A DNA stretch of 64,000 nt from the NCBI RefSeq assembly GCF_004363075.1, contig NZ_SNYN01000001.1, positions 811,602-875,601 on the forward strand, given 5' to 3'. Shown piece by piece: positions 24,665 to 44,300 of the stretch. This DNA is from Actinorugispora endophytica. GTDB taxonomy: Bacteria; Actinomycetota; Actinomycetes; Streptosporangiales; Streptosporangiaceae. The position numbers and the translations under genes are program-made. The stretch's first letter is position 1; the number at the start of each line of letters is the position of its first letter. Below the pieces are notes generated by a model that saw only the letters and a list, made by a program, of their open reading frames with translations, made no database searches and was not told the DNA's origin.

Positions 24665-25819
24665 GTGAGATTCCGAGCCGACCGCGACGCGTTCGCGGAC
24701 GCCATCACCTGGACGGCGCGGGCACTGCCGGTACGCCCCGCGGTGCCCGTGCTCGCCGGGATGCGCCTGGACATCACCGACGCCGCGGCGGGCACGCTGG
24801 GGCTGTCCGCCTTCGACTACGAGGTCTCCACGCGCGCGTCCGTGGACGTCCAGGTCGAGGAGCCGGGCAGCGTCCTGGTGTCCGGCCGCCTCCTCTCCGA
24901 GATCGTCCGGAACCTCCCCCCGTACCCCGTCGAGATGCGCACCGACGGCTCCCGCGCGCTCCTGACGTGCGGAAGCGCCCGTTTCACACTGCTCACCCTC
25001 CCCATCGAGGACTACCCCACGCTGCCGTCCATGCCCGACGTCACCGGGTCCCTGCCCGGCGACGTGTTCGCCTCGGCGGTGCGCCAGGTGGCCCCGTCCG
25101 CCAGCCGCGACGACACCCTGCCCATGCTCACCGGCGTGAACCTGACCTTCTCCGGCGGCACCGTCTTCCTCGCGGCCACCGACCGCTACCGGATCGCCGT
25201 ACGCGAGGCGTGGTGGCAGCCGCGGTCCCCGGACGTCGACACCTCCGCGCTGGTCCCCGCGCGCACCCTCTTCGACACCGCGCGCTCGCTCACCTCGGGC
25301 GGAAACGTCGACATCGCGCTGTCCGCGGTGGACGGGAGCGGCGCCCGGGCCACCCGGGGGGAGGGCATGATCGGATTCGAGTACGCCGGTCGGCGCACCA
25401 CCACCCGGCTCATCGACAGCGACTTCATCACGTACGACTCCCGCTTCCCCACCGAGTTCGCGGCCACCGCCGAGGTCCCCGTCGCCCCGCTGGTCGAGGC
25501 GGTCAAGCGGGTGGCGCTCGTCGCCGACCGCAGCACCCCGCTGCGGCTCTCCTTCGGCCAGGGCGAGGTCGTCCTGGAGGCGGGCTCCGGCGACGACGCC
25601 CAGGCCGCGGAGGCGCTGGACGTCAAGTTCGAGGGGGAGCCCATGCGGATCGCCTTCAGCCCGCAGTACTTCCTCGACGGACTCGGCGGCGTCGAGAGCG
25701 AGACCGCCTTCCTCAACTTCACGGCCCCCACCAAACCGGCGGTGATCACCGGGGCCCCCGCCGAGGAGGGCGGCCGACCGAACTACCGCTACCTGGTGAT
25801 GCCGCTGCGCGTCGCCTGA
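24665..25819 (+). CDS. DNA polymerase III beta sliding clamp (DnaN-type)
   Basis: 384 residues, three clamp folds: domain I about 1-120 ([36 protein letters not shown]), domain II about 121-245 ([34 protein letters not shown]), domain III about 246-384, ending [11 protein letters not shown]. It starts at GTG 24665. The neighbours are unusual: canonical dnaN lies between dnaA and recF, while here mdh follows and no dnaA is near. I infer a second clamp gene (dnaN2-like), but the rest of the genome is not visible. Two DnaA-like boxes lie upstream. Confidence 0.9.
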
Positions 25820-27582: not shown

Positions 27583-27613
27583 TTGTCCACAGATTTCCAC
27601 AGGCTTATCCACA
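27583..27613. promoter_or_regulatory. Three consecutive DnaA-box-like 9-mers
   Basis: TTGTCCACA (27583), ATTTCCACA (27593) and TTATCCACA (27605) occur in one orientation, spaced 10-12 bp, about one helical turn. Two are exact matches to known DnaA-box variants. They lie between the oxidase-like gene and the 88-bp palindrome. Confidence 0.6.
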
Positions 27614-27652: not shown

Positions 27653-27740
27653 GTCCGTTTTCCCTGGTGATCTTGACCTTTTCGGGGTCTCAGCCATGGC
27701 TGAGACCCCGAAAAGGTCAAGATCACCAGGGAAAACGGAC
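27653..27740. repeat. 88-bp perfect palindrome, family of two (copy B)
   Basis: Perfect 44-bp arms with no spacer: it begins GTCCGTTTTCCCTGGTGATC and the centre is CAGCCA/TGGCTG. It ends 21 bp past the stop of the minus-strand DUF2786 gene. The arm core GGTGATCTTGACCTTTTCGG is shared, with few changes, with the palindrome after dnaX at 5259-5328. A cruciform or a very strong RNA hairpin is expected. Confidence 0.92.
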
Positions 27741-39989: not shown

Positions 39990-41069
39990 TCAGGCACCGG
40001 CGGGCAGGTCGCGGACCGGCATGACCAGCGTGGTGAAACTTCCCTGGTCGGCGGAGCGGACGACCACGGGAAGCGTCGGCGACGCGACCTCCAGGAGCAC
40101 GTCGGGGCCGACACCCGCGTCGAGCGCGGGCAGGAGGACCCCGGGATCGAAGGCGACGCGGAGCGGCGGGCCCGCGCAGATGGCACGCAGCCCGGTCTCG
40201 CCCGGGCCCCGGCCCGAGACCGCGACCCGCTGCCCCTCCGCACTCAGGACGACCGGACCGTCGCCCCCGACTCCGGCGAGGATCCTCCTGAGGACGTCCC
40301 GATCGGTGATCACCCGGTTCCGGACGGCCGGAAGGTCGTCCAGGACCGTCCGGTAGAGGGGGAACTCCCCGTCGACGGCCGACAGCGTCCGGGACTCCCC
40401 GCCGCCCCGGACCAGGACGCTCCGCCCCTCGACCTCGACATCGACCTCCGGCAGGCGCAGCGCCCATGACGCCGCCTCCCTCATCTCCGACGCGTCGACC
40501 GGCACCCGCAGGGGACCGCCGTGGATGAAGGCGGGGCGCAGCACCCGGACGGCCATGCGGTAGCGGTCGGTGGCCACCAGGCGGACCTCCTGGCCGTCGA
40601 GCTCGACCAGGACGCAGCCGAGCACCGGGAACTCCTTCCGGACCGCCGCGGAGGCCACAGCGGGCGCCACCTGCCGCACGGCACTGGCCAGCTCCGCTCC
40701 GCCGATCCGTGCCCCGGCCCGGTGCGCGCCGTCCGGCAGGTCCCGGAGGATGTCCTCGACCACCGAACGGGCCGCCGTCGCCGTGTCCATGGTCCTTCGC
40801 GCGTGGCCCTCCAGGACCTCGCGGGCCTCGTCACGGGGGCCGTCGAGCACGACCGAGGCGTCGACCAGGGGCAGCCCGGCCTCCCGCAGCCGCCGCACGA
40901 GGACCGCGCGGGGCTCCTGCCCCGGGTCGTAGTAGCGGTATCCCGTCGCCCCGTCCACGAGGGCGGGCCGCAGGACACCGCAGTCGTCGTAGAACCGCAG
41001 GGCGCTCGGCGCCAGCCCCACCCGCCGGGCGAAGGCGCCGATGCCCAGCAGCGATCCGGTGTCGTCCAT
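39990..41069 (-). CDS. MerR-type DNA-binding domain fused to two beta-clamp domains
   Basis: 359 residues, ATG 41069. Residues about 8-75 are a MerR winged helix (IGAFARRVGLAPSALRFYDD, then GVLRPALVDGATGYRYYDPG), followed by a helical linker (to about 118). Residues 122-240 match clamp domain [44 protein letters not shown]. Residues 245-359 match domain III, ending ADQGSFTTLVMPVRDLPAGA. The clamp at 24665 shares SAVRQVAP and ATDRYR-AVR. Clamp domain I is absent; MerR takes its place. No effector cysteine cluster is seen. It may be a transcription factor that uses the clamp fold for partner binding. Confidence 0.85.
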   Translation of the reverse strand: MDDTGSLLGIGAFARRVGLAPSALRFYDDCGVLRPALVDGATGYRYYDPGQEPRAVLVRRLREAGLPLVDASVVLDGPRDEAREVLEGHARRTMDTATAARSVVEDILRDLPDGAHRAGARIGGAELASAVRQVAPAVASAAVRKEFPVLGCVLVELDGQEVRLVATDRYRMAVRVLRPAFIHGGPLRVPVDASEMREAASWALRLPEVDVEVEGRSVLVRGGGESRTLSAVDGEFPLYRTVLDDLPAVRNRVITDRDVLRRILAGVGGDGPVVLSAEGQRVAVSGRGPGETGLRAICAGPPLRVAFDPGVLLPALDAGVGPDVLLEVASPTLPVVVRSADQGSFTTLVMPVRDLPAGA

Positions 41070-41188: not shown

Positions 41189-42538
41189 TCACCCCGGCGC
41201 CATGTCGACGAAGCGGCTGTAGTGCCCCTGGAACGCCACGGTCACCGTCGCCGTGGGGCCGTTGCGGTGCTTGGCCACGATCAGGTCGGCCTCTCCCGCG
41301 CGCGGCGACTCCTTCTCGTGCACGTCCTCGCGGTACAGGAGGATGACCATGTCGGCGTCCTGTTCGATCGACCCCGACTCGCGCAGGTCGCTCACCTGGG
41401 GCTTCTTGTCCGTTCTCTGCTCCGGACCACGGTTGAGCTGGGACAGCGCGATCACCGGGACCTCCAGTTCCTTGGCCAGGAGCTTGAGCGACCGGGACAT
41501 CTCCGAGACCTCCTGCTGGCGGCTCTCCACCCGGCCCGGGGAGCTCATCAGCTGGAGGTAGTCGACGATGACGAGCTTGAGGTCGTGCTGCTGCTTGAGC
41601 CTGCGGCACTTGGCCCGGATCTCCATCATCGACATGTTCGGGGAGTCGTCGATGAACAGCGGCGCGCTCGCCACCTCGCCCATCCGCCGCGCCAGCCGGG
41701 TCCAGTCGTCGTCGGTCATCAGCCCCGACCGCATGGTGTGCAGCGGAACCCGCGCCTCCGCCGACAGCAGTCGCATGACGATCTCGTTGCGCCCCATCTC
41801 CAGGCTGAAGAAGACCGAGGTCAACTGGTGCTTGATCGACGCGGCCCGGGCGAAGTCCAGGGCCAGCGTGGATTTTCCGACCGCGGGCCTGGCCGCGATG
41901 ATGATCATCTGGCCCGGGTGCAGGCCGTTGGAGAGCGCGTCGAAGTCGGTGAAGCCGGTGGGCACGCCGGTCATGGTGCCGTCGTGGGACGAGATCGCCT
42001 CGATCTCGTCCAGGGCGCCCGGCATGATCTCGCTGAGGGGGAGGTAGTCCTCGCCCGTGCGCTTCTCGGCGACCCGGTAGATCTCGGCCTGGGCCCGGTC
42101 GACGAGGTCGTCGACCTCCCCGTCGCCGGAGTAGCCGATCTGCGCGATACGGGTGCCCACCTCGACCAGGCGGCGCAGGACCGCGCGGTCGGAGACGATG
42201 CGCGCGTAGTAGCCGGCGTTGGCCGCGGTGGGGACGGCGTCGGTCAGGGTGTGCAGGTAGGGAGCGCCGCCGACCCTGGCGACCTCCCCGCGCTTGGTGA
42301 GCTCGGCGTTGACCGAGACCGCGTCCACCGGCTCGCCCCGGGAGAACAGGTCGATGATCGTGTCGTAGATGGTCTGGTGGGCGGGACGGTAGAAGTCCGC
42401 CGAGCGCACGATCTCGACGACCTGGGTGATGGCCTCCTTGGACAGCAGCATGCCGCCGAGGACGCACTGCTCCGCCATGATGTCGTTCGGCGGTGTGCGC
42501 TCGAACCCGCTCTCCCCCGCCTGCTGGTCAACGCTCAC
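41189..42538 (-). CDS. dnaB: Replicative DNA helicase DnaB
   Basis: Hexameric 5'-3' helicase at the fork. 449 residues from GTG 42538 with GGGGGAAG upstream. N-terminal collar domain (ERTPPNDIMAEQCVLGGMLL), then RecA-like motor with Walker A AARPAVGKSTLALDFAR, Walker B LVIVDYLQLM, and LRESGSIEQDADMVILLYRE with the arginine finger. No intein. The upstream 300 bp hold a dense cluster of DnaA-box-like sequences. Confidence 0.96.
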   Translation of the reverse strand: MSVDQQAGESGFERTPPNDIMAEQCVLGGMLLSKEAITQVVEIVRSADFYRPAHQTIYDTIIDLFSRGEPVDAVSVNAELTKRGEVARVGGAPYLHTLTDAVPTAANAGYYARIVSDRAVLRRLVEVGTRIAQIGYSGDGEVDDLVDRAQAEIYRVAEKRTGEDYLPLSEIMPGALDEIEAISSHDGTMTGVPTGFTDFDALSNGLHPGQMIIIAARPAVGKSTLALDFARAASIKHQLTSVFFSLEMGRNEIVMRLLSAEARVPLHTMRSGLMTDDDWTRLARRMGEVASAPLFIDDSPNMSMMEIRAKCRRLKQQHDLKLVIVDYLQLMSSPGRVESRQQEVSEMSRSLKLLAKELEVPVIALSQLNRGPEQRTDKKPQVSDLRESGSIEQDADMVILLYREDVHEKESPRAGEADLIVAKHRNGPTATVTVAFQGHYSRFVDMAPG

Positions 42539-42627
42539 GGCTTCCCCCTGGAGCTGGACTACATGCCCGAACGTGACATGCCCGAACTTGGATTCTCGCC
42601 ACTTCCTCTGACAGTCGCAAAGTGACC

Positions 42628-42830
42628 TGTGGACGAACCTGGGGACAACCTGTGGATGACTGTCCCCCTGCTGGGGATAACCTGTGCACGCAGCCTGTGG
42701 ATAACTTTTCCACACCCTACATACATACGACTTGACCTGCAAAAACGCTGCCCGTCGGCTGTGCATGAAAGAAAGTTCACACCCGGATATCCACAACTTA
42801 TCCACAGGTCGCCCCGACGTCGGTGGATAA
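42628..42830. promoter_or_regulatory. DnaA-box cluster upstream of dnaB
   Basis: At least eight sites matching TTATCCACA with 0-2 changes in 203 bp. Reverse-orientation sites start at 42628, 42651, 42672, 42696 (exact) and 42822; forward ones at 42706, 42787 and 42798 (exact). The middle (42715-42775) is locally AT-richer. The layout resembles an origin or a DnaA-titration site; it could also regulate dnaB and the divergent exporter gene. Confidence 0.75.
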
Positions 42831-42947
42831 CCTCACGCACCTCCGCCATGACCCCGCGTGTCGCCGGAGACCCGGCCACCGGACCGCGCCGGCAACCGGT
42901 GATCCTCCCACCGGTCGCGAACCGGGCCCCGGTAGCGTTGTGGTGCC

Positions 42948-44300
42948 ATGCCACGCCTTCTCAGCGCCGCGCCGTTCCGGCACCCCCGCGACCGCGAGAT
43001 CCTCCGCCTCGCCGTCCCCACCTTCTTCGCCCTGATCTCGGAACCGTTGTTCCTGCTCACCGACTCCGCGGTCGTGGGGCGGCTCGGCACCGAGGCGCTC
43101 GGCGGGCTCGGCGTGGCCGGGCAGGTCCTGCTGACCCTCGCGAACCTGTGCGTCTTCCTGGCCTACGGCACCACCGCCGCCGTCGCCCGGAGGTTCGGCG
43201 CCGGGCAGACCGGGCCGGGGATCAGGCACGGCGTCGACGGGCTGTGGCTGGCCGTGCTGATCGGAGCCGCCACCGTCGCCGCGGGCTGGCCGCTGGCCCC
43301 GTGGCTGGTCCAGGCGCTGGGCGCGTCCGAGGCGGTCTTCCCCTACGCGCTGACCTACCTGCGGATCAGCCTGCTCAGCCTCCCGGCGCTGCTGATCATC
43401 ATGGCCGGGACGGGCGTGCTGCGCGGACTCCAGAACGCCCGCACGCCACTGCTGGTCGCGGTGGGCTCGAACCTCGCGAACATCGTGCTGTGCGTGCTGT
43501 TCGTGCTCGTGCTGGACTGGGGCATCGCCGGTTCGGCGTGGGCCACGGTGATCGCGCAGACCGCGGGCGCCGCGGTCTACCTGGCGGTGGTGGGTCGGGC
43601 CGCCCGACGGCACGGCGTCTCGCTCGCCCCCACCCTGACCGGGGTGCGCGCCGCCGCCACGGCGGGCTTCGCGCTGTTCGTCCGGACGGTCTCGCTGCGG
43701 GTGGTGCTGGTGGTCATGACCGCGATCGCGGCCCGGCTCGGCGACCCCGAGATCGCCGCGCACCAGGTGGTCTCCCTGCTGTGGTCGCTGCTGGTCTTCG
43801 CGCTGGACGCCATCGCGATCGCCGGTCAGGCGATCATCGGCCGCTACCTGGGGGCCTCCGACACCGTCGGCGCCCGCGGGGCCACCCGCCGGATGGTCGA
43901 GTGGGGGGTGCTGCTGGGACTCGTCTTCACCGTGCTGGTCCTCGCGCTGCGCCCCTGGGTGTGGATCCCGTTCACCGACGACCCCCGGGTCCGCGCCCTG
44001 ATCCTGGCGGCGCTGGTGGTGGTCGCGCTCCTGCAGCCGCTGGGCGGGGTCGTGATGGTCCTGGACGGGATCCTGATGGGCGCCGGAGACCAGCGCTACC
44101 TCGCCTGGGCGAGCCTGTGGACGATGCTCGTCTTCCTGCCCTTCGCCGCGCTGGTCCCCCTCCTGAGCCCTCCGGGCACCGGCGGCCTCACCCTGCTGTG
44201 GTCGGCCTTCGCGGTGTGGATGCTGGCCCGCGGGGTGACGCTGGGCCTGCGCGCCGCGGGGAGCGCGTGGCTGGTGACCGGGGCGGACAGCGGACGCTGA
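42948..44300 (+). CDS. MATE-family efflux transporter (DinF-like)
   Basis: 450 residues with 12 predicted membrane helices in two six-helix halves. ILRLAVPTFFALISEPLFLL at the start, SAVVGRLGTEALGGLGVAGQ and the matching second-half EIAAHQVVSLLWSLLVFALD fit the DinF branch, which exports organic cations or reactive compounds using Na+ or H+. ATG 42948 follows TAGCGT at about 12 nt, so the mRNA may be leaderless. It is divergent from dnaB across the DnaA-box cluster, an arrangement seen in Streptomyces. Confidence 0.92.
   Translation: MPRLLSAAPFRHPRDREILRLAVPTFFALISEPLFLLTDSAVVGRLGTEALGGLGVAGQVLLTLANLCVFLAYGTTAAVARRFGAGQTGPGIRHGVDGLWLAVLIGAATVAAGWPLAPWLVQALGASEAVFPYALTYLRISLLSLPALLIIMAGTGVLRGLQNARTPLLVAVGSNLANIVLCVLFVLVLDWGIAGSAWATVIAQTAGAAVYLAVVGRAARRHGVSLAPTLTGVRAAATAGFALFVRTVSLRVVLVVMTAIAARLGDPEIAAHQVVSLLWSLLVFALDAIAIAGQAIIGRYLGASDTVGARGATRRMVEWGVLLGLVFTVLVLALRPWVWIPFTDDPRVRALILAALVVVALLQPLGGVVMVLDGILMGAGDQRYLAWASLWTMLVFLPFAALVPLLSPPGTGGLTLLWSAFAVWMLARGVTLGLRAAGSAWLVTGADSGR

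Follow-up and report, generated by a model that had tools for sequence, protein, structure and literature searches.

The dnaB locus and its DnaA-box cluster

The window analysed here is a stretch of 64,000 nucleotides (C1:811602-875601) from the 5.25-Mb genome of Actinorugispora endophytica, which is assembled in 44 contigs. It contains the replicative helicase gene dnaB and, divergent from it, a gene for a MATE-family transporter, with a dense cluster of predicted DnaA boxes between them (Table 1). This placement, already proposed in the original prediction, is borne out by a TIGR00665 match on the minus strand and a TIGR00797 match on the plus strand. The start of dnaB at 42538 was inferred from the family alignment, its N-terminus being conserved in relatives. 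Adjoining dnaB, at window positions 39990-41069 on the minus strand, is a gene whose product combines a MerR helix-turn-helix at its N-terminus with a weakly beta-clamp-like part; to the right of the MATE gene lie an amidase-like ORF, rplI and ssb. Among the named dnaB loci retrieved, the most similar one (L050) comes from a Nocardiopsaceae bacterium and is 89% identical in the part that matched. As had also been claimed, dnaA and dnaN are absent from the window; both are on the same contig, about 42 kb from the box cluster.

Table 1. Features of the dnaB region and places in the genome with exact DnaA boxes close together. Coordinates are those of the window unless preceded by a contig name (C1, C7); mismatches are counted against TTRTCCACA.
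Feature	Coordinates	Strand	Remarks
dnaB, replicative helicase	41189..42538	-	GTG start at 42538; TIGR00665, E 1.6e-164 on the longer ORF 41189-42805
-10-like GAGAAT, presumed dnaB promoter	42592..42597	-	GA[C/G]AAT in 24/30 family loci (best 30 of 144)
-35-like TTGCGA, presumed dnaB promoter	42615..42620	-	TTTGC beside box in 26/30 family loci (best 30 of 144)
DnaA box 1, TCGTCCACA	42628..42636	-	1 mismatch; adjoins -35-like element
DnaA box 2, TTGTCCCCA	42640..42648	-	1 mismatch
DnaA box 3, TCATCCACA	42651..42659	-	1 mismatch
DnaA box 4, TTATCCCCA	42672..42680	-	1 mismatch
DnaA box 5, TTATCCACA	42696..42704	-	exact
DnaA box 6, TTTTCCACA	42706..42714	+	1 mismatch
15-bp element, TGACCTGCAAAAACG	42733..42747	+	exact copy at oriC, C1:896332
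Weak box-like site, TCATGCACA	42760..42768	-	2 mismatches
Conserved stretch, GAAAGAAAGTTCACA	42767..42781	+	
DnaA box 7, ATATCCACA	42787..42795	+	1 mismatch; first of + + pair
DnaA box 8, TTATCCACA	42798..42806	+	exact; second of + + pair
DnaA box 9, TTATCCACC	42822..42830	-	1 mismatch
MATE-family transporter	42948..44300	+	divergent neighbour; TIGR00797
Exact-box cluster, window 27583-27613	C1:839184-839214
Exact-box cluster, dnaB array	C1:854297-854407		full array C1:854229-854431, ~42 kb from oriC
Exact-box cluster before dnaA (rpmH-dnaA)	C1:893613-893823		rpmH read by eye
Exact-box cluster in dnaA-dnaN gap, oriC	C1:896094-896442
Exact-box cluster directly downstream of crgA	C7:159937-159979

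Nine sites with at most one mismatch to TTRTCCACA, two of them exact, lie within 203 bp (42628-42830), six on the minus and three on the plus strand, and a tenth site with two mismatches is found at 42760 on the minus strand. The earlier count of at least eight sites in about 200 bp and in both orientations is thus slightly exceeded. The cluster is directly upstream of dnaB, whose start is 90-292 bp downstream of the nine boxes. In 2000 first-order shuffles of the 408-bp stretch 42540-42947 the mean number of such sites was 0.17 and the maximum 3. Across the whole window, 11 sites differ from TTATCCACA by at most one base where 1.28 +/- 1.19 are expected, and none of 100 shuffles reached 11; the second-densest place (27583 onwards) has two sites at this threshold.

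DnaA-box clusters across the genome

Exact TTRTCCACA occurs 52 times in the genome, compared with 12 occurrences of the same pattern read backwards, while the number of sites with at most one mismatch (520) is near the background of 444. Consequently, isolated one-mismatch sites weigh little and the signal lies in clustering. At only five places do at least two exact boxes lie close to each other (Table 1); the dnaB array is one of them and the dnaA-dnaN gap another, and the search of window and genome did not turn up the many equally dense clusters that would have made this one unremarkable. The dnaA gene is flanked by box clusters on both sides (L009:7602-7929 and L009:10095-10443), of which the one between dnaA and dnaN has a DnaA-trio and the 15-bp element described below.

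The three sites of the small cluster at window 27583-27613, about 57 kb from oriC, are all on the plus strand; two are exact boxes and the third has two mismatches. Beside it is a perfect 88-bp palindrome with 44-nt arms and no loop (27653-27740), and less than 2 kb away lies a second full gene for a DnaN-like beta clamp (window ~24665-25819; L012:267-1421, plus strand; TIGR00663, E 1.2e-77) with all three Pfam clamp domains. Outside this genome, four exact boxes were seen at G162:C1:4406103-4406414, about 96 kb from dnaA, in an assembly that is, by inference, probably a Streptomyces; this group might be the high-affinity cluster of that genome.

Conservation of boxes upstream of dnaB

We compared 110 dnaB loci, comprising 30 family loci from the best 30 of 144 matching genomes and 80 named loci kept from 589 confirmed stretches; the set includes the window's own locus (L017), contains one repeat (L050 repeats L040) and over-represents Streptomyces. 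Within the 700 bp upstream of dnaB, at least one box with at most one mismatch was present in 109 of these 110 loci and at least three in 103, and the reversed pattern reached three in a single locus.

The position of dnaB relative to dnaA was analysed in genomes that have both genes on one contig. A first set of 40 genomes comprised 39 of the 53 one-contig genomes together with G277 (two contigs), and shares G085 with the 110-locus set. The 14 remaining one-contig genomes were those whose match was not among the matches listed; of these, G166, G169 and G211 entered a second set and 11 were left out altogether. The second set also included four genomes of the class that are assembled in 2-7 contigs, as well as 13 genomes not belonging to the class, of which three have 2-3 contigs. 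At least two boxes precede dnaB in 46 of 47 class genomes (at least three in 39), and dnaB lies 20-86 kb from dnaA in 46 of the 47. The only class genome with a distant dnaB (G320, 267 kb from dnaA) has no boxes upstream of it. Within the family, dnaB lies 23-57 kb from dnaN in the 24 genomes, among the best 30 of 144, that have both on one contig.

Outside the class, at least two boxes were found upstream of dnaB in only two of 13 genomes. There, they are present in one of seven genomes whose dnaB is no more than 62 kb from dnaA, and a dnaB 220 kb away has three. Judged by these boxes, control of dnaB by DnaA through such sites is not universal. Extra dnaB genes lacked boxes in all four cases looked at; in the contaminated assembly G036, two contigs with dnaB have three and four boxes. 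No MATE gene was detected at 69 of 150 loci, and at least one box is still present at 67 of these; absence of the gene is less sure for 40 of the 150, where only 1.8-1.9 kb were covered.

Architecture of the array and the presumed dnaB promoter

A typical family array begins with box 1 beside TTTGC, continues with more boxes about one helical turn apart, a gap and more boxes, and then has the 15-bp element, a GAAAGAAA stretch, the + + pair and often a final minus-strand box; the underlying conservation profile excludes six family rows whose layout differs. Same-strand spacings between sites with at most two mismatches are mainly 11-13 and 21-24 bp in the arrays, and 11-13 and 19-22 bp, plus 9 bp for an abutting pair, in oriC of the same genomes.

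Read in the sense of dnaB, the order here is TTGCGA (42620-42615), 17 nt and GAGAAT (42597-42592). Of the 30 family loci (best 30 of 144), 24 retain the arrangement TTTGCN, 18-19 nt, GA[C/G]AAT; 26 have their nearest box directly adjoining TTTGC, and four lack this contact. A scan with the sigma-70 consensus returned no promoter at the TTGCGA/GAGAAT position. From this conserved geometry, we infer that the two hexamers form the dnaB promoter, in which case DnaA would be bound from about -45 upward.

A 15-bp element common to oriC and the dnaB array

A 15-bp element, TGANCTGCRAAAACR, stands directly before the paired boxes at oriC and lies within the array at dnaB; in this genome the exact 15-mer occurs at these two places only. 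An in-frame query located DnaN in all 30 family loci and confirmed each of the 30 oriC regions to within 12 bp. The oriC segment was chosen by position and not by sequence, as the 15 bp ending four bases before the + + pair and trio, in 27 of 30 family genomes. Its consensus over these 27 genomes is TGACCTGCGAAAACA. A pattern written for the oriC element hit 27 of the 30 family genomes (best 30 of 144), and related sequences were present in two of the three missed. A scoring matrix was built on 26 oriC copies with the source genome excluded. When it was run over the dnaB arrays of the best 30 of 144, 28 scored higher than every one of their 60 shuffles, each time on the plus strand; L028 and L030 did not. 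In the window, only one of 319 tiles of 200 bp scored 17 or more.

Beyond the family, several genomes from other families have a related sequence ahead of the trio, and dnaB loci from Arthrobacter, Pseudarthrobacter and Nocardioides contain strong matches (L088, L092, L094, L096, L085, L111). Raw scores, taken without shuffle comparison, exceeded 13 at 13 of the 80 named dnaB loci and at 8 of 40 dnaB regions from closed genomes, and were at least 14 in 11 of 20 further oriC regions. Thus, the element looks old, as far as these matches can tell, and patchy in distribution. In this genome it was not found at the rpmH-dnaA and 839-kb clusters (best scores 5.7 and 9.2), and an alignment of the array with oriC did not bring the shared element into register.

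Gene conversion or a recent duplication between oriC and dnaB was considered as its source and rejected: the two elements differ on average by 3.52 positions within and 3.68 between genomes (25 of 30 usable), and the within-genome likeness was reached by 1033 of 5000 permutations, which indicates no coupling. Two elements from the same genome scarcely resemble each other more than two from different genomes do, which agrees better with a shared constraint; the exact 15/15 match in this genome is partly luck. A text search for the core of the element together with oriC and DnaA, the scope of which excluded figures and most subscription papers, returned only unrelated papers. Within that scope, the element is possibly new.

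The crgA cluster

The cluster directly downstream of crgA in this genome extends over L010:3360-3502 (C7:159859-160001). At least three boxes were found just downstream of crgA in 24 of 30 family genomes (best 30 of 144), compared with none of 30 upstream and none of 30 for the reversed pattern. A sequence related to the 15-bp element, in opposite orientation, had a score reached by at most one in 100 shuffles in 12 of 30 genomes and by 3 of 100 in the source genome; the presence of the element at crgA is suggestive only.

IDAP-seq identified five DnaA regions in Mycobacterium tuberculosis, namely oriC, Rv0010c-Rv0011c, Rv0057 upstream of dnaB, Rv3843c-RVnc0040 and rpmH-dnaA, and ChIP-seq in M. 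smegmatis recovered homologues of the same five (PMC7738170). The authors of that study saw no obvious correspondence of the Rv0010c-Rv0011c site in other species (PMC7738170). Our data suggest that the crgA clusters of the family are its counterparts. If Rv0011c is crgA, as we take it to be, then four of the five exact-box clusters found here match the mycobacterial list.

Probable control of dnaB by DnaA and alternative explanations

We consider it likely that the array is a DnaA-bound control region of dnaB, probably an activating one, with titration as a by-product of its position. DnaA would bind the helically phased boxes, oligomerise and reach the -35-like element of the presumed dnaB promoter; abundant active DnaA would most likely switch dnaB on, so that helicase supply tracks initiation. 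Some titration of DnaA is to be expected because the locus is near oriC and copied soon after initiation, and the array should assemble DnaA without opening the DNA because the DnaA-trio of oriC was not found in it. In mycobacteria, a DnaA mutant with weaker binding upstream of dnaB has lower dnaB expression (PMC7738170). By analogy, DnaA would behave towards dnaB in A. endophytica as it does in mycobacteria, and its effect would be activation, the sign being taken from this one published mutant. The original prediction had offered a second DnaA-binding locus, such as a titration site of the datA or DARS type, or direct control of dnaB by DnaA. Conservation within the class and published mycobacterial binding support a locus at dnaB to which DnaA binds; titration stands only as possible.

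A wider proposal, more tentative than the control of dnaB itself, is that TGANCTGCRAAAACR, shared by oriC, the dnaB array and the crgA cluster of some relatives, is the site of a partner protein that works with DnaA. It would tie together initiation, helicase supply and perhaps cell division, and would make the dnaB array an orisome-like platform without the unwinding part. We regard this as possible, with the chances somewhat against it. Finding the binder of the element at oriC and dnaB could reveal a new initiation factor of actinobacteria.

The main rival to control of dnaB is that the array is chiefly an oriC-proximal sink, which is duplicated early, captures DnaA and stops early re-initiation, its adjacency to dnaB being secondary. 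Consistent with a sink, dense boxes lie near but outside oriC, other exact-box clusters of this genome are near oriC as well, dnaB is close to dnaA in 46 of 47 class genomes and to dnaN in the 24 family genomes that have both on one contig, and the sole distant dnaB of the class (G320) has no boxes. Clusters near oriC in Streptomyces coelicolor and Bacillus subtilis are said to repress untimely initiation (PMC4585315, PMC10950094). However, the conserved contact between box and promoter-like element is unnecessary for a mere sink, outside the class boxes are rare even where dnaB is nearby and are present at the dnaB 220 kb away, and the published mutant ties DnaA binding to dnaB expression (PMC7738170). 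The two readings are poorly separated because dnaB is nearly always near oriC within the class. The contact with the presumed promoter and the mutant favour regulation, whereas G320 fits a sink slightly better; on balance, we find a sink unlikely as the chief function, and titration may be a second role of the array.

That the array is datA-like or DARS-like, promoting DnaA-ATP hydrolysis or DnaA-ADP exchange, appears improbable to us. In its favour, the array is a DnaA-box cluster near yet outside oriC, and the further conserved element could bind a partner protein; in Escherichia coli, datA and DARS require IHF or Fis.

A second, cryptic replication origin is very improbable. Box spacing resembles that of oriC, the 15-bp element and the + + pair are present in both, and the source genome has a trio-like CCTACATACATACGAC after box 6 (42716-42731), but the other 109 dnaB loci all lack the core of this look-alike, CTACATAC, the DnaA-trio motif TA[CT]TA[CT]TA was found in all 30 oriC regions of the family but in none of its 30 dnaB arrays (best 30 of 144), and the coarse 4-kb skew profile, computed for the window only, is mostly negative and near zero after 44 kb with no clear sign change. 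Control of the divergent MATE gene, for which the array is suitably placed, 117 bp ahead of the MATE start in the region between the two divergent genes, has just as slight a chance, since the boxes abut the dnaB side and persist in nearly all loci where no MATE gene was detected (67 of 69, with the reduced coverage noted above).

Comparison with known DnaA-binding sites

Within the same genome, oriC (C1:896094-896442) resembles the dnaB array in its phased boxes, + + pair and 15-bp element; it differs in having the DnaA-trio and in a pair spacing of 9 bp (abutting) instead of 11 bp. Streptomyces coelicolor also has box clusters near oriC but outside it, H69, H24 and D78, reportedly described by Smulczyk-Krawczyszyn et al. 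in 2006, and D78 is said to have been studied as a DnaA sink. The oriC-proximal box clusters of B. subtilis, which reportedly were described by Okumura et al. in 2012 and are said to repress untimely initiation, are similarly placed, although in another phylum. In Caulobacter crescentus, boxes are predicted upstream of dnaB and dnaB belongs to the DnaA regulon (PMC8203912).

The closest parallel in gene and kind of place is the mycobacterial Rv0057 region, where DnaA binding was measured in vitro in M. tuberculosis and in vivo in M. smegmatis (PMC7738170); it belongs to another family, and the likeness drawn here is one of gene and position. Binding of DnaA upstream of dnaB is already known, and the additions made here are the class-wide spread of the boxes, their contact with the presumed promoter and the shared element. 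The DnaA-dnaB link measured in mycobacteria is extended to a layout found in nearly every class genome tested, with a promoter geometry that is testable.
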